DNA of 43,274 bases, taken from assembly GCA_017635095.1 (NCBI GenBank), contig JAGBMA010000043.1:1-43274 (forward strand). Direction: 5' to 3'. The position numbers were made by a program, and so were the translations under genes. Origin of the DNA: Ruminiclostridium sp. (lineage in GTDB: Bacteria > Bacillota > Clostridia > Oscillospirales > Ruminococcaceae). The notes beneath the pieces were generated by a model. The model worked only from the letters and a program-made list of their open reading frames with translations, did no database searches and was not told where the DNA came from. Shown here piece after piece: positions 22,673 to 43,274 of the stretch (positions are counted from its first letter, which is position 1; each line of letters opens with the position of its first letter).

Positions 22673-23614
22673 TCAATATTCTTTTTCCCGGCTAAGCCCC
22701 GGATGTCTTGACATAAATATCCGGTGCTGGATTATGACATATATGAGTGACAGGGCGGTACCGATGATCGCTCCTGCGGATACATCGCTTAGATAATGAG
22801 CGCCGAGCTGCATTCTCGTAAACATAACGATCATACCGAACGTGAGCCCGCATATAAGCAGCAGGTCAACACGCTTTTTGAGCTTCGGGAACAGCCATAC
22901 CACGGAAAGAAGTATATATACGCAGGAAATGCTGAGAACACTGTGACCGCTCGGAAATGAATGAAGATCTGTCTTTTCGAGCCCGAATGACTCTATGAAT
23001 CCTGCGGCGCCCGAAAACGGCTCATACCATGGCACAAAGCCTATCCCTTCATATCCTCTTACAACGATACGGTATCTCGGGCGGCTGAATATGATCTTCA
23101 GCACCTCCATTGACAGCAGTGCGATGAGCATTATTGCCACAAGTCCCAATATCTTTTTTGCAAGCAGCTTATCCTTGGACTTGGCTCCGAGCCTGTACCC
23201 GAGGAAAAACAGCGGATATGCCGCCACGATGCTTACGGCTATGGCTATGGGAGTATTATGATTCAGCGCCGGGAATACGCCGCCGAGACAATCCACCGAA
23301 AGAAGTGAGCGCGAGCCTTCGAATCCCGAATACAGAGCAAGACCGGCGCAAATGCAGCAGAACAGCACTTTCAGAGGCTTATTCAGACCCGAGTGGATCG
23401 TACGTTCGGTAAGTGTACCCATAAACAGCACGGCGGACGCAAAGAAGGGATATATTCCCGCCGTCGTGATAAATATTGCCGGCAGATTGTCGGGTGTGTA
23501 TATTGCGGCAGCTATCGTTTCGTCGTAAAACGTTCCCACGAAAAACAAAGCTGTGAAAATGACCAGCGTGATGATATGAAAGACGATCTGCCACGTGTAT
23601 TTCTTTATTGACAT
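22673..23614 (-). CDS. PAP2-family membrane phosphatase
   Basis: A 313-residue integral membrane protein. It has the three PAP2 motifs in order: KIIFSRPR (about 172-179), HSFPSGHS (about 218-225) and FTRMQLGAHYLSDV (about 263-276). They sit among about eight hydrophobic helices. PAP2 enzymes dephosphorylate lipid phosphates such as phosphatidate or undecaprenyl pyrophosphate; the substrate cannot be told from sequence. SD gaaagg precedes ATG 23614. HD-GYP follows 42 nt downstream on the same strand, so the two may be co-transcribed. Confidence 0.9.
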   Translation of the reverse strand: MSIKKYTWQIVFHIITLVIFTALFFVGTFYDETIAAAIYTPDNLPAIFITTAGIYPFFASAVLFMGTLTERTIHSGLNKPLKVLFCCICAGLALYSGFEGSRSLLSVDCLGGVFPALNHNTPIAIAVSIVAAYPLFFLGYRLGAKSKDKLLAKKILGLVAIMLIALLSMEVLKIIFSRPRYRIVVRGYEGIGFVPWYEPFSGAAGFIESFGLEKTDLHSFPSGHSVLSISCVYILLSVVWLFPKLKKRVDLLLICGLTFGMIVMFTRMQLGAHYLSDVSAGAIIGTALSLIYVIIQHRIFMSRHPGLSREKEY

Positions 23615-23693
23615 AACCTTTCACCAACCTCAGATTATTGTTATTACTTCTGCAATTAAAAAATTGCTTTAGAGGTTCCCTTTATATAATACA

Positions 23694-23724
23694 TTCATTC
23701 CCCAGCCGGAGGCGGGGGAATGAA
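23694..23724 (-). terminator. Hairpin after the CPBP gene
   Basis: A 10-bp perfect stem, ttcattcccc (23694-23703) with ggggaatgaa (23715-23724). It lies 30 nt beyond the CPBP stop on the minus strand, between that gene and PAP2. The U-run is weak, so termination is likely but not certain. Confidence 0.55.
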
Positions 23725-23753
23725 CAAAAATCAAACTATTTATTGTAATATCA

Positions 23754-24839
23754 CTATGCCGTCGCTGCCATGCTTGACATAAACACCGTTATCATAGAGC
23801 CAAGCTCAAAGATCACCGCTATCCAGAAGGAAGGACAGCCGAACAGGAGCTTTACCGTATTTTCGGACTTTGCGGGAAGCTCAGAGTTAAGACCGGGCGC
23901 GATGATATCCGTTTTGTTGTTTATCCTTCCGTTCTTTTTGAAGAACAGTATAAGACACGGTGCGGCAATGACAAATTCTGCGACGAAGAATATAATGTAT
24001 CCCGTATCTCCCCATGCCTCCGCTGCAAAGCCAGCCGCGAACGCCATAAAGTTCGTAAGCATATGCGCGATTATATTGGGTATGACGCTTCCCGCTTTAA
24101 GTGCGATATAGCCGTGAATGATACCGATGATGAATGTATTGGGGAACTGCCCTAAATTCCCGTGTATGAGAGCAAACATCAGCGACGAAACGATTATCGC
24201 AAACCACTTGCTTACCGGCGAGAGTGCGTTCAGCATAAATCCCCGGAAAAACAGCTCTTCGAGCAGCGCGGCGAAAATGCAGGAATAGATCATGGCTATT
24301 ATCTGCCCGACAGGGTCGCCGTTGCCGCTCATCGTATTTGCCAGATCCGCAGACGAGCCGTTTGTTCCGGCGATCGTTCTTAACAGCAGCGAAATGAGTA
24401 CCGATACCGGCTGTACAGCAAGGATACCGATAACGCCGAGCGGAACTGCCTTAGCGCGGGTCTTGGTATGGAGACTGTCCCTGAATCTGAAGGTATGTAT
24501 CATTTTATATCCGACGGCTGTCGCAACCACGAGAGCGAGTCCGGCAGCCGCAAGACTGATGAGTGTAGTCAGCACCGCTTGCTGCCCGATAGCCTCGCTC
24601 ACAAGCACTTTCAGCTCTTCCGCGGAAACGCCGGGATTTTCCGCTTGCAGACGCGATGCGGCTATAGCCTGTAAAACCACATTTGCACCGACGGAAACAA
24701 GGTTTATCACAAGTATCTGGAACAATACCGCTGTGGTGGATACGCCGTATGAGCGCTTTACGCGCCTGCGCTCTTCTTTTACCGGATCGGACGTGCTGCC
24801 GGTATCATTACTCTGAACCGACTCTTCCGCTTTTTTCAT
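23754..24839 (-). CDS. CPBP (CAAX/type II) intramembrane metalloprotease
   Basis: A 361-residue membrane protein with motif 1 EELFFRGFML (EExxxR, about 192-201), motif 2 FALIHGNL (about 220) and motif 3 IIAHMLTNF (about 255-263) within eight hydrophobic helices. Motif Glu/His residues needed for the Rce1-like active site are present. An N-terminal basic cytoplasmic segment of about 35 residues precedes the first helix. CPBP proteases act in prenyl-protein processing or bacteriocin maturation and immunity; the substrate here is unknown. It is a second, distant paralogue of the CPBP gene at 39555. Confidence 0.88.
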   Translation of the reverse strand: MKKAEESVQSNDTGSTSDPVKEERRRVKRSYGVSTTAVLFQILVINLVSVGANVVLQAIAASRLQAENPGVSAEELKVLVSEAIGQQAVLTTLISLAAAGLALVVATAVGYKMIHTFRFRDSLHTKTRAKAVPLGVIGILAVQPVSVLISLLLRTIAGTNGSSADLANTMSGNGDPVGQIIAMIYSCIFAALLEELFFRGFMLNALSPVSKWFAIIVSSLMFALIHGNLGQFPNTFIIGIIHGYIALKAGSVIPNIIAHMLTNFMAFAAGFAAEAWGDTGYIIFFVAEFVIAAPCLILFFKKNGRINNKTDIIAPGLNSELPAKSENTVKLLFGCPSFWIAVIFELGSMITVFMSSMAATA

Positions 24840-24952
24840 AGGTGATTCTCCTCAATTCTTTGTTTTGTTGCGTTATAAATCTGACAGATCTGAAAACAAC
24901 GATAATTCTTCTTAAAAACAATACGTTTGCGAACCAGATTCCACTCAGCGTA

Positions 24953-25600
24953 TCATGCTTCAAGCATCTTCTTTCCCTTAGTGAGATATACAAGATAGAT
25001 GATATATCCGATAAGGGATATGATCGTTGCAACGATCAGAAGAATACCGTTCGTAAAAGTAGCTATTGTTGCAAGCACGATCTGTACGACCTCGATCACG
25101 AGAATAACATTGCCCATGGACACGACATCATCTCTGCCGAGATCCTTGGCGAGTGTGCTTATACCCATTACCGTGAAGACATACACAGCGATAGTAGCAA
25201 CATTCAGGAAGGTCTTAAGTACGCTTGCTATAGTGCCGAGGAAGGGTATCACTCCCGCGAGTCCGGTGATAAGATTTGCGATAAGCAGAAGGACAGACAT
25301 TATAAAAGCGTTTTTAAAATACTTTGGCTCATCCTCCGATGCCTTCTTAAGACCGATGATCATAAATATTACGGAAATGATGCTCAATACGGCAATTCCA
25401 AGCGAAAGGATCACTACTCCGAGACCCGAAGCGACAGCGCCGACCGCTCCCGCTTCCGAGCCGTCCGCCGCAGCAGCGGCACCTGTCAATGCTGTAACAC
25501 CGAGCAATGCGACTATGATCGCAAGACCCGCACTGATGATCTGGAGGGCTTCGGCTGCTACGATCTTCTTCATTCCCTCATAAGCGTTTTTGAACTTCAT
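24953..25600 (-). CDS. Hypothetical multi-pass membrane protein
   Basis: A 215-residue, very hydrophobic protein with about five or six helices: 13-40, 55-85, 100-130, 135-155, 163-205. An Ala/Gly-rich loop with GSEAGAVG lies near residue 50. There are no catalytic motifs and I recognise no family. ATG 25600 has SD aaaggtgg. It lies just downstream of the two-component system genes in the same direction, and its 5' region contains the dyad at 25663-25680, so it is a plausible target of that system (inference). Confidence 0.7.
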   Translation of the reverse strand: MKFKNAYEGMKKIVAAEALQIISAGLAIIVALLGVTALTGAAAAADGSEAGAVGAVASGLGVVILSLGIAVLSIISVIFMIIGLKKASEDEPKYFKNAFIMSVLLLIANLITGLAGVIPFLGTIASVLKTFLNVATIAVYVFTVMGISTLAKDLGRDDVVSMGNVILVIEVVQIVLATIATFTNGILLIVATIISLIGYIIYLVYLTKGKKMLEA

Positions 25601-25662
25601 GTGTTTCCACCTTTCCGCGAAGGCTATAGACCTTCGACTTGCATAGATTTAAATTATGTCAA

Positions 25663-25680
25663 ACCATATCCCTATATGGT
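25663..25680. promoter_or_regulatory. Dyad accatat-N4-atatggt, candidate operator
   Basis: A perfect 7-bp inverted repeat (25663-25669, 25674-25680) between the response regulator stop and the membrane protein gene. It is a candidate binding site for the neighbouring regulator; no assigned consensus is known to me. Confidence 0.4.
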
Positions 25681-25704
25681 CAATGACCTGCGAATATCAA
25701 TAAA

Positions 25705-26511
25705 TCATCGGGAATCGCTTTTCATGCGCGAGGCGTATGCTTCGCGCATGTTTGCCCACGAATACTGATTCATATATTCTCCGCGGTACGAATTGACCGC
25801 GTCGGCATCGCCTGCAAGAAATCTGTACATATCGCAGTCGATAAGCTCCGGACGTATCCGCATGGTAGCCCGTTCAAGGACGAATATATCCTCCGCGCCG
25901 TGCTCCTTCAGCACATTTCTCAGGTTTCTTATCACATTGTCGAACTGCTTCTGCATCGACCTGTCATACTCCCTGTTCTCATAAAGCGCCATAAACGCCT
26001 GCAGCCTTGAAACGCTTCTGCCGTGCTTTTCGATCAGATATGCCAGAAGCTCCTTTGATTTGGACTTGATGAATACCAGTATCTCTCCGTCAACCCTGAC
26101 CTCGAAATCACCGAATGTCTGCACCGTGATACGGGAATACATATACAAAGGATGATTTACAAGCGCGTATTTTATCTCCGCCGCAAGCGTCTCCTTATCT
26201 ATGGGCTTCATGATATATCCCGACGCGTGAAGCCTGAACGCCTCCACTGCGTACTCCGAATAAGCGGTCAGGAAGATTATGGAGGTATCGGGACTTTTAT
26301 CCTTTATACGGACAGCAAGCTCTATCCCGTTCATATCGGGCATATTGATATCGAGCACTGCGATATCGACAGTGTTTTTGCCGATATATTCAAGCGCAGC
26401 TCCGCAATTTGTGAACCCCTTCGCTTCCGCTATACCATCGATCTCACCGCAAAGACTCACGGTCTGATCCAGCACCAGCGGCGCATCATCCACACACATT
26501 ACATTTATCAT
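25705..26511 (-). CDS. Response regulator with SARP-like winged-helix output
   Basis: A 268-residue protein. The receiver domain (1-120) has the acidic pair DD near residue 8, phospho-acceptor Asp in AVLDINMPDMNG (about 53), the FLTAYSEYA switch region near 80 and Lys in YIMKPID near 102. The output region (about 128-215) has VQTFGDFEVRVDGE followed by SKSKELLAYLIEKHGR, a Trans_reg_C/BTAD-like winged helix. The DNA-binding half is therefore SARP/OmpR-like, not LytTR, unusual beside a LytS-type kinase. It lies 17 nt after the kinase gene. Confidence 0.88.
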   Translation of the reverse strand: MINVMCVDDAPLVLDQTVSLCGEIDGIAEAKGFTNCGAALEYIGKNTVDIAVLDINMPDMNGIELAVRIKDKSPDTSIIFLTAYSEYAVEAFRLHASGYIMKPIDKETLAAEIKYALVNHPLYMYSRITVQTFGDFEVRVDGEILVFIKSKSKELLAYLIEKHGRSVSRLQAFMALYENREYDRSMQKQFDNVIRNLRNVLKEHGAEDIFVLERATMRIRPELIDCDMYRFLAGDADAVNSYRGEYMNQYSWANMREAYASRMKSDSR

Positions 26512-26528
26512 AAAACATATCCTTTCGG

Positions 26529-27764
26529 TTACAACGGTATGCAGATAACGACCTCCGTTCCCTCATTCACGGCGCTGTGTACCGTTAAACTACCTCCGGT
26601 TATTTTTTCTATCCTTGCACGCACATTTCGCAGTCCGATATGCGTATCGTCCATATCGAAAGCCTTTTCGGCATCAAACCCTTTTCCGTTATCCTTTATC
26701 ACTATCTCATGGTGATCGTCCGTGCGCCTTGTGATAACGCTTACAATACCTTTTTCCCGAATGCGTACCCCGTGGCTTATGGCGTTTTCCACCATAGGCT
26801 GAACGGTGAGCGAGGGAATAGAAAAATCCTTGTCCCGTATATCATATTCAAGGCGCACATTCGGATACTGGAGCATCTCGATATCGGCATACACCTTTGT
26901 ATATTCCAGTTCCTTCTCAAACGGAATGAGCATATCGCTGCGAAGAGTGTCTATGTTCTGCCGCAGATAAACTCCGAATTTCTGCACCGTCTCCCCGGCA
27001 AGGACGGGGTCTGTCCTGCATAGTGACTGTATCGCCGCAAGAGTATTGAAAAGGAAGTGCGGACTCATCTGCGACATCATTATCCTTATACGCTGTTCGG
27101 CTTTAAGGTCGTTCTCATGCTCGCGGACGAACTGGAGATGCAGCCAGATGTAATAAAGAACACAGCTTGACGCGGACACCACCGTGAGCAGATCTATCCG
27201 ATAGGTCTTGAGGATAAAAATATCGGTGATCGTTGCGGCTGTGATGAGTACGACGACAACGAACGGAAAAACAGACAGCCTGTTCATAGTTTTACGGTAG
27301 TTCCTTACAGATGCAAAGATCAGCTGTATAAGCAGGATCACGCTTACCACGAAGCAGCTGTAGCCGAGAGGACCCCGCATAAAATTGCCGCTTTCGCTGT
27401 AATAGAACGAAAGCTCCGAGAAAAATGCCGTGCAATAGACAGCCGCGTTCAGACCGACAAGTATCCACATCTTTCTGCTGTCTGTGAATATCTTTATAAA
27501 CAGACTTATGATGACAGGTCTGATACTGTACCCGTAAACGCCGGAAACTATCCTTGCCGCAGTCATGTTATTTTCGTCAAAATACGCGCCTGCCTGCTGC
27601 TGTATCACCAGCGTCAGTACAAGCACCGTATTGATCATCATTATTCTCTTGCTCCGCTTATTTATAAACGGATCCATCACAAGAGTGAAGATCATTCCGA
27701 AAAGCTGGACAAGAAGCGCCACATTCAGCGCCGTCATTGTCTGCTCAAATACCGTGTTTGTCAA
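26529..27764 (-). CDS. Sensor histidine kinase, LytS/YesM-type
   Basis: A 411-residue protein with six or seven N-terminal membrane helices (about 1-200) and no extracytoplasmic domain. The His-kinase box SQMSPHFLFNTLAAIQSL (about 222-239) and the HATPase region with VENAISHGV (N box, about 328) and IKDNGKGFD (G1, about 358) follow. TTG 27764 is chosen because SD aaaggaagg lies 7 nt upstream. GTG 27773 would sit inside the SD. Together with the response regulator it forms a two-component system; the signal is unknown. Confidence 0.88.
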   Translation of the reverse strand: MTNTVFEQTMTALNVALLVQLFGMIFTLVMDPFINKRSKRIMMINTVLVLTLVIQQQAGAYFDENNMTAARIVSGVYGYSIRPVIISLFIKIFTDSRKMWILVGLNAAVYCTAFFSELSFYYSESGNFMRGPLGYSCFVVSVILLIQLIFASVRNYRKTMNRLSVFPFVVVVLITAATITDIFILKTYRIDLLTVVSASSCVLYYIWLHLQFVREHENDLKAEQRIRIMMSQMSPHFLFNTLAAIQSLCRTDPVLAGETVQKFGVYLRQNIDTLRSDMLIPFEKELEYTKVYADIEMLQYPNVRLEYDIRDKDFSIPSLTVQPMVENAISHGVRIREKGIVSVITRRTDDHHEIVIKDNGKGFDAEKAFDMDDTHIGLRNVRARIEKITGGSLTVHSAVNEGTEVVICIPL

Positions 27765-27793
27765 AAAAAGCACCTTCCTTTCGCGTATGACAA

Positions 27794-27822
27794 ATTATAT
27801 CACACAACACGCCGGATTTCAA
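27794..27822 (-). promoter_or_regulatory. Promoter of the two-component operon
   Basis: On the minus strand: TTGAAA (27822-27817), 17 bp, TATAAT (27799-27794) with an upstream TG (extended -10), about 30 bp before the TTG start. Confidence 0.8.
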
Positions 27823-27885
27823 GCAGACCGCCTCGTTTCCGGCGCGTGCGTATGTGTATTGCAGGGAAGGTATGCGGCTCAGAGA

Positions 27886-28743
27886 TCAGAAAAGCCCGTC
27901 GATATACTTCGTCAGAGCTTCCCTGTCATAGAAATGCTCCATTTTGCTGATAACAAAGTCCGGTTCCACGCCCTGATCTATGTCATAGAAGGAGCCGTTC
28001 CTGAGGAAGCTCAGCCGCATAGAGCCCGAAACATTGAACAGGCTTCCTGTGGCGGTGGACATAGGCATAACATAGCAGGCGCCGCCGCCGCTTCTCTGTC
28101 CGATAAGGGTCACATGGGGATCGTCCTTGAACACGGCAGGTACAAGGTTTCCGCAGGAGAAGCTCACCTTTGATTCAAGGCAGTAAAGGTTTAGTCCCTT
28201 GCCCGCCAGAGTATCCTTGGAATCGAACTTGTGGTCGAAATTGGTGTCTATCTTGTAATCATTGGTAACGAGAGCGCCGGTGTTCGGATCCTCCAAGCTT
28301 ATCGAAGCCTTGCCGAGGAAGGCGGCTATGGTATATACTGCCGCGTCCGCCTGACCGCCGGTGTTGCAGGAAAGGTCGAGCACAACATTCTTTATCGGGC
28401 TGTCTTTTCTGAGGATCTGCTGTACGGAATAAGCTATTATGCCGAATGTATCCCTATCTTTGGCGGTCGGAGCCTCTTCGTAATAGTCGCGCATATTTGT
28501 GTAGAAGCCGTCAAAGGTTATGTAAGCTGTATCACCGACCTCCTGATACCCGGGAACTCCGTCGGGATTGTATTTTTTTCTTATGCTCTCATACTCATCC
28601 TCGAGCGCAAAGGTATTTTCTCTTGCACGGCCTTCGCCGAATTTCTCATATAGAGCATCGCCGAATTCATATCCCGACGCGTAGGAAGACATATTGAACA
28701 TGATGATTTTTGAAAGGAAGGACAATTTATGGCATTTAGACAA
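27886..28743 (-). pseudogene. 5'-truncated S41-family peptidase
   Basis: The remaining 285 codons hold the C-terminal catalytic part of a tail-specific-protease-like S41 peptidase. This includes KNVVLDLSCNTGG near residue 120, the nucleophile region SFSCGNLVPAVFKD near 195-208 and IGQRSGGGACYVMP near 215. S41 enzymes normally have a signal peptide and N-terminal domain before this, and neither is present. The first 14 residues (MSKCHKLSF...) read antisense through DNA belonging to the mobile-element remnant. There is no SD at any candidate start. The break is at about 28690-28710. Probably non-functional. Confidence 0.72.
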
Positions 28744-28802
28744 GCCTCCCGCCGAGATTTTATTGGGTTTGGTAATGGAATTTCGGCGCGGGTCGTGGTA
28801 TC

Positions 28803-28963
28803 ATGTTGGGTAAAAAACAAAGCATCTTCCGCCTTGCAGTCGAAAAGATAGTTGCCATGTCCGAGAACGAGGTGCTGTTCAAGGTAAGCGGCGGACTGGA
28901 ATTCAAGGAAAAGATAGAGAGGTAAAGCACATGAGATCGCACAGAAATATCCCATTCGGTTAG
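28803..28963 (+). pseudogene. Serine-recombinase 3' end and 5' start of its partner gene (remnant)
   Basis: Codons 28803-28925 read IFRLAVEKIVAMSENEVLFK plus a GG-LEF-KEKIER end, which resembles the C-terminal tail of large serine recombinases. The frame is closed upstream by TAA 28773, so the body is missing. An SD (gagagg) and ATG 28931 then start MRSHRNIPFG, the typical opening of a second small recombinase in such clusters; the frame hits TAG at 28961 exactly where the DNA changes character. Together these look like the internal scar of a deleted integrative element. Family assignment is from memory of tail patterns and needs a search. Confidence 0.5.
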
Positions 28964-30533
28964 TTTTGCTGTTTTATGGAGTAGACTTCTTGGCAGTAAC
29001 TATGGAGAAACATTAATTAATGCTGGATTCAAGAAAACCAGCGTCTTAATAACATTAAGAGACGATATTTCTAATTTTAATAAACATCGCGGTGAAATAC
29101 CTGACTGGAACAGCTGCTGTACATTTTATGAGGAATTGTATAAACTTGTTTCAAATTTCATCTCCAATGATGCGATGGTCAAAGCCGAGAGATTAAATAC
29201 AGGGGCACAAGAATGGGATGACATTTTTTCTGATGCAAAAGGCTTTGGTAAATTCAGTGGTTATAAATATGCACTTGTCTGTGACAGACTTGATTTAGAA
29301 AACAAGCTTGACATTTTCAGAATACCGTGGTCTTTGCTGTTAGATCTCGATTTTGATTCACAGGAAGAAAGCGGTCTGAAATATGAGTATAATCACAATG
29401 ATACAGATACCACGGCGGTTTTTTACAGAATATATGATAATAAAGCTAATATTATCGAAAGGTCATCATCAATTCATTGGATGTCTGTTTGCAACTATGA
29501 TGAACAAGGAAACAGACCACCATTAAGAAGAATTAAAATGCAAATCACCCAAAATCTTGATAGATTGATAAAAAATTATCACAGGTTTAACTCCGAGCCT
29601 CTGATAGTTGTGTTAGCAGTCACTAATCAGCAATATATCCCTTTGTTGAGTGAGATATTACGTATTTTTAACAATAACTATTACAATGAATATGTAGAAA
29701 CATACACAGATGTAAGTTTTTTTAAACTTAATTACTCTTGTGTTGAACTGCCAATAACTGAGGATTATCAAATAAAAGGATATGATATCAATATAAAAAC
29801 ACTTTCAAAAGGCGCTAATGCTGAGATCAACCATCCGAAAAATAACGGCAAATATGTTATTCCTTCTGAAAAAAATGAAGACGGTCTTGAGTTAGCTGAG
29901 ATATCCAGAGATCAGTATCTCAGAATGAAAAACTACTTTGAACCCGTGTTTATAGGTATAGAGCATGATGCGGAAAACAACAATGTCACAGATCCTATTT
30001 ATTTTTACAAAGGGGCTTCACGGATAACCTGGAAAATGCTTTCTGATGAAGTTGACATTGTTCCGAATATAACAGAGAAATGTATTAGCCGGATAAAAGA
30101 AATATGCGCAAATAAAGGAAACAGTAAAATTAGGATGTATTACAATCGCGGAATGGGCGGAACAACTTTATTGAGACGGCTTGCTTTTTTACTTCATAAT
30201 GAATTTCCCGCGATTATGATCAACTCCTATACAAAAGAAAAGACCGCCGATGAGATAGAAAAGCTATATAATCTTTCCAAAAAAACAGTTGTAATTTTCA
30301 TCGACTGCAACAGATTATATCACGAAGAGACGGAAAACCTTCATAATGAACTAAAAAGCAGAACAATTAACAGCGTTATTATACATTTGATGAAAAAAAC
30401 CGGTGTTTCCGGTAAGGAAATTATTCCCTCTCTGTTAAAATACAGTTCAGACGAAGTTGAGCGATTAAAGGAAAAGCTTAAATTAGTTATAAAAACGTGT
30501 TATGATAACATATTTACTGGAACAATTTGCTAG
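28962..30533 (+). pseudogene. Headless SAMD9-like STAND P-loop NTPase
   Basis: A frame open from 28935 to 30533 with no ATG, GTG or TTG before TTG 29136, yet protein-like sequence runs from the junction at about 28962 (VLWSRLLGSNYGETLINAGF). About 520 residues remain. FYKGASRITWKML near residue 350 is followed by the P-loop YYNRGMGGTTLLRRLAF, where GGTT replaces GKT as in SAMD9-like NTPases, then Walker B-like VVIFIDCN. The N terminus and the region after about 30500 are missing. Codons are far more AT-rich than the neighbours, indicating transfer. SAMD9-like STANDs are antiviral in animals and defence-linked in bacteria; that assignment is inferred from motifs. Confidence 0.55.
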
Positions 30534-30890
30534 TCTTCCGCTTTCCGAACGTGAAATGGTATACTGCTATGATCAGTTTAAGACCATAAAGGAAGTCATA
30601 AAGAAAAGCGAGATCCTTATTGTAAAATTATCTTCCAAAAATGAGTATGAAGTCAAGCCAGTTGACCTCAAGATAGACGAAAACATATTATCGTACTATC
30701 TTATAGGTTACTCAAGGCTCAAAGGAAGTGAAAGCGATTTTGAAAGTTACCCATTAAAATTAAGCAGAATTAAAGAATGCAAATCCAAGCACAAAGATGC
30801 CCAGCTTTCACATACGGAAATAAAAATACTAAAAGAGATTGACGAAAAATTTGGAAGTGCATATATTGCAAAAAATCTTGAAAAAAAGCA
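30502..30890 (+). pseudogene. WYL-domain regulator fragment
   Basis: From ATG 30502 the frame reads LLEQFASLPLSEREMVYCYD, then a WYL-like module (EVKPVDLKIDENILSYYLIGYS and YPLKLSRIKEC) up to about residue 125. The frame stays open to 31053 only because it then runs antisense over the next gene. No HTH precedes the WYL domain, and there is no SD before 30502, which overlaps the STAND frame. It looks like the C-terminal half of a WYL regulator fused by deletion to the STAND remnant. WYL proteins are frequent regulators of defence loci. Confidence 0.55.
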
Positions 30891-31275
30891 TCATTGCACT
30901 TGTGCGGATACTTCCGTCCTCATTCAGGTTGTCCGCGAGACGGCCTTCTATGATCTCCGGCAGAAAACCGCCGCATACTCCCGCAAGTATAATGAATCCG
31001 GTCACCAGCATTATTTTTGCGGTATTCAGGTCTTTCTGGTTGACGGGATATAAGCTGTCTTTTTTGGCAGTGTAAACGGTATATACGAGCATAGATATCC
31101 CGGAGAACAAAGCGATCGCTCCGATCCCGCTTGTCCAGTGCACAAAATCGCTTAATACGGAATTTACTGCCGATAACACGGAGAATACGGCGAGCGCAAT
31201 GATCGAACCCCTTGTCTGGTTTTTCTTCTGCAGCTCATCGAACTCAGCCGGATTGAATTTTTTGTAATCTGTCAT
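30829..31275 (-). CDS. Small membrane protein partner of XRE regulator, 3' end replaced
   Basis: A 148-residue protein. A soluble N terminus (MTDYKKFNPAEFDELQKKN) precedes four hydrophobic helices (about 22-45, 50-68, 85-105 and a last one). The genuine part runs to about ...DGSIRTSAM; the terminal FFKIFCNICTSKFFVNLF lies in the AT-rich island and is probably foreign read-through, so the original C terminus is lost. It lies 5 nt after the XRE gene. XRE plus small membrane protein pairs are common in Firmicutes. The function is unknown and the gene may be impaired. Confidence 0.65.
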   Translation of the reverse strand: MTDYKKFNPAEFDELQKKNQTRGSIIALAVFSVLSAVNSVLSDFVHWTSGIGAIALFSGISMLVYTVYTAKKDSLYPVNQKDLNTAKIMLVTGFIILAGVCGGFLPEIIEGRLADNLNEDGSIRTSAMMLFFKIFCNICTSKFFVNLF

Positions 31276-31280
31276 GATCG

Positions 31281-31484
31281 TTACCTCTTTTCTTCGTCCC
31301 AGAACAACTCATCGAGTGTTTTGCCCAAAGCCTTGCATATGGCTATGCAAAGATTGAGCGTCGGATTGTAATCCCCGCGTTCTATCGCGTTAAGGGTCTG
31401 CCGCGTCACGCCGACTTTATCTGCAAGCTCCTGCTGCGAGAGGTCGAGTGCCGCCCTTGCCGATTTCAGTTTTAAGTTCTTCAC
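31281..31484 (-). CDS. XRE-family transcriptional regulator
   Basis: A 67-residue single-domain Cro/CI-type regulator: SARAALDLSQQELADKVGVTRQTLNAIERGDYNPTLNLCIAICKALGKTLDELF. It resembles the YgzD/YozG group. The start is GTG 31484, supported by SD ggagggg. It is followed 5 nt later by the membrane protein gene and preceded by a consensus promoter, so it probably controls the pair itself. Confidence 0.92.
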   Translation of the reverse strand: MKNLKLKSARAALDLSQQELADKVGVTRQTLNAIERGDYNPTLNLCIAICKALGKTLDELFWDEEKR

Positions 31485-31511
31485 CTTGCCCCTCCTCTTC
31501 TTACAATGTAC

Positions 31512-31540
31512 AGTATAGCAGATATTTTACAATATGTCAA
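31512..31540 (-). promoter_or_regulatory. Promoter of the XRE operon
   Basis: On the minus strand: TTGACA (31540-31535), 17-bp spacer, TATACT (31517-31512), 28 bp before the GTG start. Confidence 0.85.
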
Positions 31541-31685
31541 GTATATTATACATATTTTATGAAATATTTTACTTGTCGTGCTTCAGGTGCAGGATAAGAG
31601 CAAAAGATTCACCTCGTCGGTGGGAGTATGAAAGAGAGATATCGGGAGTGCAGAGACCGCCTTATAGACTGCACGAAAAAAATAG

Positions 31686-43076: not shown

Positions 43077-43132
43077 AAGCAGACCTCCTTGATCGAATTG
43101 GTGGCTCCTCAGCATTTCACAATAGGGTACCT

Positions 43133-43274
43133 CTAAAAACCGCTTTGAAAAGAGAAAATGAGATAGCTGCGTCGGATACAAGGAAAGCCGACGAAGCCGG
43201 GCTGGCGCCCGGTTAGGAGGTTTGACGCAGTAGACGGCGTGGATAGCTCTTTTTATCTCAAATTGGGTTTTTAG
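43133..43274. mobile_element. MITE-like 142-bp element at the window end
   Basis: The left end ctaaaaaccg (43133-43142) and right end cgggttttag-like gggtttttag (43265-43274) are inverted: ctaaaaacc matches perfectly for nine bases, then similarity is imperfect over about 30 bp (gagatagct against agctctttttatctc). Inside, ctgcgtc/gacgcag, gtcgg/ccgac and ccgggc-tggc-gcccgg make a nested stem-loop. It has no coding capacity. The window stops at the terminal ag, so a target duplication cannot be checked. Confidence 0.6.

Follow-up and report, generated by a model that had tools for sequence, protein, structure and literature searches.

Remnants of six genes adjoin within 2.2 kb

We analyzed a 43,274-bp contig (JAGBMA010000043.1, here C195) of a draft Ruminiclostridium sp. 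genome (GCA_017635095.1; 236 contigs, 3.83 Mb, 98.3% complete, 4.18% estimated contamination) and refer to this whole stretch as the window. Around 28690–30895 it joins pieces of an S41 peptidase gene, two serine recombinase genes, a predicted SAMD9-like STAND NTPase gene, a WYL gene and a membrane gene. On reading along the plus strand, the S41 gene comes first (3' part only, minus strand), followed by the recombinase leader and tail, the first ten codons of a second recombinase, the NTPase and WYL frames and, again on the minus strand, the membrane gene. An initial annotation had listed five unrelated gene pieces here; all are present where it placed them, well beyond chance, but in intact elements the two recombinase pieces directly adjoin each other, so the genes are not all unrelated. 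The features are as follows.

27889–28689, minus strand: C-terminal part of an S41 peptidase, about 270 codons (PF03572, E = 5.8e-14); the first ∼330–370 residues are gone
28690–28712: junction 1, S41 gene to recombinase leader; homologies reaching to 28705 and starting from 28699 overlap by 7 nt
28699–28822, plus strand: non-coding leader that precedes the first gene of a serine-recombinase triplet (82% identical to G000:C140:4765-4874, 84% to G039:C104, 85% to G006:C10)
28821–28822: junction 2, where 1.42 kb with the body of the recombinase was deleted; 2–4 nt common to both sides in relatives
28821–28925, plus strand: tail of the first recombinase, 34 codons and a stop; first 103 bases identical to G046:C171
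28931–28963, plus strand: ten codons of the second recombinase (ATG at 28931, TAG at 28961–28963), within the tail match to the triplet
28962–28963: junction 3, second recombinase to AT-rich DNA; all tail matches end at 28962
28963–30488, plus strand: predicted middle part of a SAMD9-like STAND NTPase, headless and tailless (PF25199; 508 stop-free codons)
30150–30167, plus strand: variant P-loop GMGGTT, lysine absent, of the SAMD9 type (signature in PMC5445408)
30485–30493: junction 4, NTPase frame to WYL frame; WYL homology starts at 30487 (L124) to 30493 (L128)
30493–30888, plus strand: central WYL domain of an RspWYL1-type protein, both ends cut, original start missing
30888–30893: junction 5, WYL piece to membrane gene; homology ends
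30829–31275, minus strand: membrane gene; last ∼30 codons lost, now ∼19 foreign codons at its end
31281–31484, minus strand: intact XRE-type helix-turn-helix (HTH) gene preceding the membrane gene (PF01381, E = 1.3e-19)

A serine-recombinase triplet with an internal deletion

One of the breaks lies within the recombinase remnants. The window retains the leader, which matches the triplet of its own genome (contig C140 of G000) over 28713–28822 and that of G039 from 28699, and 28821–28962 holds the tail of the first recombinase together with the start of the second. In intact relatives leader and tail lie 1420 bp (C140), 1418 bp (G039) and 1420 bp (G006) apart; in the window they are adjacent. 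A 1.42-kb internal deletion that removed the body of the first recombinase is thus seen directly. At the breakpoint the two sides have AG in common when compared with the closest tail (G046), and AAAG when compared with G039. The remnant is therefore larger than the serine-recombinase tail first reported, since the leader (28713–28822) is also present; the ten partner codons ending at 28961 were confirmed.

On C140 the three recombinases of the triplet measure 504, 262 and 540 aa; Resolvase and Recombinase domains are present in the first and third, and the short second one matches part of a Recombinase domain. The recombinase frame remaining in the window had no Pfam match; the missing 1.42 kb holds these domains. 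Within the genus set (71 genomes including this one, that is, 70 others), six genomes match the island DNA, counting the genome itself: G000, G046, G006, G060 and G039 by recombinase DNA, and G010 by a 26-base match at about 30376–30401 that we take as chance.

Damage to such elements is not confined to this locus. Contig C123 of G046 (L082) bears a second damaged triplet, in which the third recombinase matches just residues 1–387 of 540 and is followed by DNA that in C140 and G006 is found at a greater distance downstream.

The NTPase and WYL pieces lack both ends

The claim of a headless SAMD9-like STAND NTPase was borne out by PF25199 (nSTAND_NTPase5; 34 bits, equal to the cut-off, and 36.4 bits for the trimmed domain) and by the GMGGTT motif, which support the predicted SAMD9-like identity; the piece is tailless too. 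Replacement of GKT/S by GGT/S in the P-loop is described as a signature of the SAMD9 family in the parts of Mekhedov and colleagues (PMC5445408) used here. The corresponding P-loops of relatives are GIGGTT in Gemmiger, GSGGTT in G889 and GVGATT in G670.

Searches with the NTPase piece covered 21 relatives, 197 order genomes, 398 phylum genomes and 396 family genomes (own genome included). No homologue beyond the genome itself was found among the 21 relatives or the 197 order genomes. The phylum set returned the genome itself, G670 (E = 1.1e-8, a 1482-aa frame) and, weakly, G598; the family set returned the genome itself, G958 (Gemmiger formicilis An812; E = 2.2e-5, 1615 aa), G889 (E = 3.5e-5, 1493 aa) and, weakly, G1022. 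We judged the two weak hits to be chance: the G598 alignment (E = 0.002) lies outside the P-loop (query 423–516), and G1022 (E = 0.008) is a lipoprotein-like frame with 29 residues aligned. The three relatives are distant (23%–31% identity over the matched parts), and alignment to them indicates that the piece is short by roughly 150–320 residues in front and 660–940 behind. Scans of genome contigs, viral contigs, plasmids and phages yielded no close relatives, the contig scans reaching close relatives only.

PF25199 itself matched in 239 of 245 genomes, mostly other ATPases, probably; above the family cut-off there were only four of 245. All 14 control genomes likewise matched, and none was above the cut-off. 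nSTAND_NTPase5 scores at or above the cut-off in the window and in Gemmiger, and below it in G670 and G889. No Pfam match was found within 28962–29997. A PW-type motif, which would hint at a variant Sir2-like domain before the NTPase, aligns with Gemmiger 263–304 and G889 392–456, below significance. The 1493-aa frame of G889 (C203; L097 362-4840) also has a TCAD9 domain and a weak N-terminal RIO1 (kinase-like) match, which agrees with the kinase-bearing bacterial SAMD9 proteins mentioned in the sections of PMC5445408 on which we draw.

The WYL fragment, too, was correctly named. A profile built from 15 of 16 homologue frames (the G732 frame was left out) matched the window from 30493 onward with 139 bits (E = 5e-42; positions 129–258 of 341), compared with 11.5 bits for the best of 2000 shuffled controls. 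Pfam WYL gave no match for the whole frame and E = 0.14 for the trimmed piece, and PDB matches of the piece were designed TIM barrels with short repeats, which we discarded. On sequence grounds we regard the WYL assignment as supported. It was the Gemmiger gene upstream of the SAMD9-like NTPase that led to this identity: its product matches RspWYL1 in PDB (E = 5e-16), and its end matches WCX with 21.1 bits (cut-off 23.9). An RspWYL1-type protein occurs in 16 of 396 family genomes (own included). All 16 homologue frames compared measure 327–401 aa; the window piece has 132. Profile positions 1–128 and 259–341, corresponding to the N-terminal RHH part and the C-terminal dimerization part (WCX in Pfam), are absent from the window. 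According to the portions of PMC6547453 that describe its layout, RspWYL1 begins with an N-terminal part up to residue 176, continues with the WYL domain (177–301) and ends in a C-terminal part that drives dimerization; taken with the profile positions, the window retains little beyond the WYL domain.

In direct comparison, protein identity to the piece is 71% for G1031, 70% for G787, 63% for G976, 63% for G789 and 58% for G889, and for Gemmiger it is 33% over 72 residues (22% over 125 in a multiple alignment). DNA similarity stops at both ends (30491–30887 with L127, 30493–30887 with L128). Viral contigs, plasmids and phages yielded no close relatives of the piece.

The genes bounding the island are cut as well. 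The S41 gene lacks its 5' part, as the initial annotation had it: in its three closest relatives the open frame is 654, 612 and 602 aa long, and the window keeps about 270. Across 26736–28705 the S41 DNA is 92% identical to G042:C120, where the gene runs on to 639 aa; the likeness drops from 28689 and ends at 28705. On the right, the membrane gene has lost its 3' end to the island, also as described: it is 45% identical to a 159-aa G059 protein as far as ..RTSxMM, with foreign DNA beyond.

Gene neighborhoods of the NTPase and WYL relatives

In Gemmiger formicilis An812, an intact 369-aa WYL frame is followed, after 183 bp, by the 1615-aa SAMD9-like NTPase frame (L096 6125-12259, NZ_JACJJP010000005.1). 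In a recurrent arrangement found in G787 (L127/L138), G1031 (L128/L139) and G889 (L129/L140), a large ATPase frame (1247, 1264 and 1683 aa, respectively) instead precedes the WYL relative on the same strand, the order found in the window. The interval between ATPase and WYL gene contains a radical-SAM cluster (Pfam-checked in G787 alone, recognized by likeness in G1031 and G889) and one further gene, of ∼300 aa in G787 and G1031 and encoding a 552-aa ATPase in G889. In G787 and G1031 the P-loop of the ATPase is an ordinary GKTT, and the match to nSTAND_NTPase5 reaches just 14 bits. Around the WYL genes of G976 and G789, no open frame exceeded 621 aa in the DNA examined.

The NTPase and WYL pieces may come from one locus, to judge from their AT-richness, the neighboring genes in Gemmiger and the ATPase–WYL order elsewhere. 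Against one locus speak the reverse gene order in Gemmiger, the features of the G787 and G1031 ATPases and the lack of a large frame near the WYL genes of G976 and G789. WYL genes elsewhere are also AT-rich (G+C 0.32–0.38 in five), so a common AT-richness need not mean one origin.

A probable scar of successive deletions

The DNA of the two defence-type pieces differs sharply from its surroundings. The G+C content of 28963–30889 is 0.337, against a mean of 0.500 (sd 0.030, minimum 0.424) for 750 same-length segments of the contig, confirming the AT-richness reported for 28962–30890; values are 0.339 for the NTPase piece, 0.326 for the WYL piece and 0.41–0.48 for the recombinase remnants. Homology breaks off sharply at every junction side that has a close relative (there is none for the NTPase at junctions 3 and 4), and at junction 4 the WYL frame has stops at 30484 and 30490. 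There were no direct or inverted repeats of at least 8 bases between 28640–28760 and 30830–30960, hence no sign of clean transposition. For every piece we found relatives that hold the missing parts, distant ones only in the case of the NTPase.

We conclude that the six gene stumps within 28690–30895 are probably a non-functional scar of successive deletions. A triplet-bearing mobile element would have stood beside, or been inserted near, the S41 gene, with AT-rich STAND–WYL DNA further to the right. Deletions between very short matches would then account for the five junctions. Junction 1 would mark the loss of the element interior together with the 5' portion of the S41 gene, and junction 2 that of the first recombinase's body. 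At junction 3 the remainder of the second recombinase, the third recombinase and the NTPase head would have gone; at junction 4, the NTPase tail, the WYL head and anything between them; and at junction 5, the WYL tail along with the 3' terminus of the membrane gene. Whereas the pieces, their truncations, the 1.42-kb deletion, the base composition and the longer relatives are observed, we infer such short matches at junctions 3 to 5, the order and number of the events and a common locus for NTPase and WYL. The collapse by deletions proposed initially is supported by the 1.42-kb deletion, by the loss of both ends from both defence-type pieces and by the lack of accumulated stops. The locus should have neither defence nor recombination activity, because no complete domain set is left and the original starts of the NTPase and WYL genes are lost.

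The break-up looks recent, given the stop-free frames and a recombinase tail identical over 103 bases to another species' copy. When we introduced random substitutions into the 1920 stop-free bases (508 + 132 codons), it took a median of 14 changes for the first in-frame stop to appear (400 runs; 95% by 63). Stop-free frames also fit, less well, frames still in use, that is, a 465-aa NTPase frame or the WYL frame expressed as a truncated protein, and start codons are present (TTG at 29136, ATG at 30502). A recent break-up also predicts the absence of stops. The WYL frame is without its DNA-binding and dimerization parts and the NTPase without its long C-terminal part, and no short-form NTPase homologue turned up in the 21, 197, 398 or 396 genomes, in plasmids or phages, or in the scans of genome and viral contigs (within reach of close relatives only). 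We consider continued use very unlikely.

Several observations weigh against the deletion scar. The mosaic comes from a single draft assembly; the joined DNA was found in none of the 70 other genus genomes and neither was the pre-deletion state; and an empty site, with the two flanks adjoining, appeared in none of ten compared stretches. The Gemmiger WYL gene lies upstream of its NTPase, the reverse of the window order. Similarity between the window NTPase and the G787 and G1031 ATPases was not demonstrable (E = 0.087), and a two-sequence profile gave 0.4 bits (E = 0.005 in a database of one), the P-loops not being aligned.

An alternative explanation is an assembly misjoin, in which reads of different loci or organisms were joined into a mosaic that exists in no cell. 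The fragmentation of the assembly, its estimated contamination and the restriction of the mosaic to one genome are compatible with this, as is a contrast between the flanks: the left one is 97.5% (24944–28278) and 92% (23571–24860) identical to G040, the right one 68%–77%, the end repeat apart. Yet five false joins within 2.2 kb would be needed, and the partner sequences overlap by 7 nt at junction 1 and by 2–4 nt at junction 2 (junctions 3 to 5 are measurable on one side at most); short-read assemblers need a word length far above 7 nt. Both flanks also have relatives within the genus, which the search for flank relatives covered. A misjoin is therefore unlikely, and successive deletions remain the preferred explanation.

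The initial annotation had further proposed a more specific history, in which one integrative element carried the STAND–WYL DNA as cargo, inserted and then collapsed. This variant of the deletion scar, whose likelihood overlaps with that of the scar itself, draws on the direct contact between recombinase remnants and defence-type pieces, and on the Gemmiger WYL–STAND pair, which has integrase-like and RepA-like frames (named by inspection) no more than a few kb away. It was not borne out by the triplets themselves. There is no cargo between the recombinases of C140, and the DNA 3' of the third recombinase is of five kinds among eight compared triplets: one kind is common to C140, G006 and G046:C123 and another to the more distant pair C194 and G006:C206, while G046:C171, G039 and G060 each have their own (apart from stray matches of 30, 66 and 146 bases across kinds), as expected of an element end. 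In streptococcal integrative conjugative elements the triplet is at or near the element extremity, with some coding sequences possible between triplet and target gene, as stated in the passages of PMC4701971 that concern these modules. The recombinase remnants (G+C 0.41–0.48) also differ in composition from the STAND–WYL DNA (0.33–0.34). Carriage by the element is accordingly doubtful. Because post-triplet DNA varies, streptococcal triplets sit at or near the extremity and C140 has no cargo between its recombinases, the AT-rich DNA would come from beyond the element end; it more likely lay beside the element or arrived separately. As it stands, the scar is an ordinary but clear example of the loss of mobile and defence-type DNA by deletion, with fragments that are still stop-free.

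A possible STAND–WYL module

The wider worth of the scar is as a pointer to intact loci that combine a WYL protein of the Cas13d-accessory type with a SAMD9-like or other large STAND-type ATPase. It is possible, though we hold the idea only tentatively, that the scar preserves the remains of a so far undescribed defence module, a large STAND ATPase (SAMD9-like in some bacteria) under the control of an RspWYL1-type WYL protein. WYL proteins are well known as regulators of defence systems, as the relevant parts of PMC4012209 and PMC9122601 relate. PADLOC (library of 2023) assigned the NTPase and WYL pieces to no family (0), and a SAMD9-like/WYL pair in bacterial defence was unnamed in the literature searched, judged by titles and abstract lines; the SAMD9 passages in PMC12169576 concern the human protein. 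If real, the module would connect the SAMD9 family, antiviral in animals, with a WYL switch of the CRISPR-Cas13d type, and, if the Gemmiger- and G787-type loci are defence systems, they would offer bacterial SAMD9 relatives with a ready-made regulator for study.

Flanking genes and the contig end

The HTH and membrane genes to the right of the island also occur as a pair in G059, and 31234–31570 is a 71% DNA match to G059:C113. To the left, window 23571–28278, which carries a response regulator and a histidine kinase along with a portion of the S41 gene, is 92%–97.5% identical to G040:C34. Recombination or transfer of recent date may explain why the flanks differ in their likeness to G040, as may a binning fault in one of the genomes.

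The S41 piece has matches in 14 of 71 genus genomes (own included), many matches in several. One paralogue (G010:C1; L135 9386-16494) lies amid small double-glycine-leader-like frames and putative peptide exporters, named by inspection; these surroundings hint that the expanded S41 family may process secreted peptides.

The contig ends within a high-copy interspersed repeat (43122–43274) that was matched in all ten genus genomes searched; among the matches listed, there were more than 20 each for G010 and G066, with identities of 77%–100%. Copies in L131, L135 and L077 start with AGGGTACCTCTAAAAACC (or near it) and finish with GGGTTTTTAGAGGTTCCCT, terminal inverted repeats of ∼18 bp. By these sequence features, the repeat is a putative element resembling miniature inverted-repeat transposable elements. 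Rfam at gathering scores found nothing beyond tRNA across the window.

Comparison with known systems

The triplet on C140 resembles the streptococcal serine-integrase module as presented in the relevant parts of PMC4701971, with three consecutive co-oriented serine recombinases. The leader and tail in the window match this module, but the catalytic domain is absent and ten codons of the second gene are left.

With the SAMD9 family, as far as the consulted sections of PMC5445408 portray it, the window shares the GGT P-loop. The NTPase sequence ends at ∼30488; no TPR array or C-terminal OB-fold was found, and no AlbA, kinase, TPR or OB-fold part is left in the window.

The WYL piece matches the mid-part of the protein family of RspWYL1, known from Type VI-D CRISPR-Cas (PDB 6OAW; described in the portions of PMC6547453 used here), with no direct match between the piece and 6OAW. 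Unlike RspWYL1, three of the five closest relatives of the window piece (G1031, G787 and G889) lie by radical-SAM and large ATPase genes; CRISPR-Cas genes were not searched for there. The N-terminal part of the BrxR family is a winged helix, unlike that of the window's WYL family. BrxR, as characterized in the pertinent parts of PMC9122601, and the window piece have in common that a WYL protein lies near a defence-type gene, while the partner genes differ.

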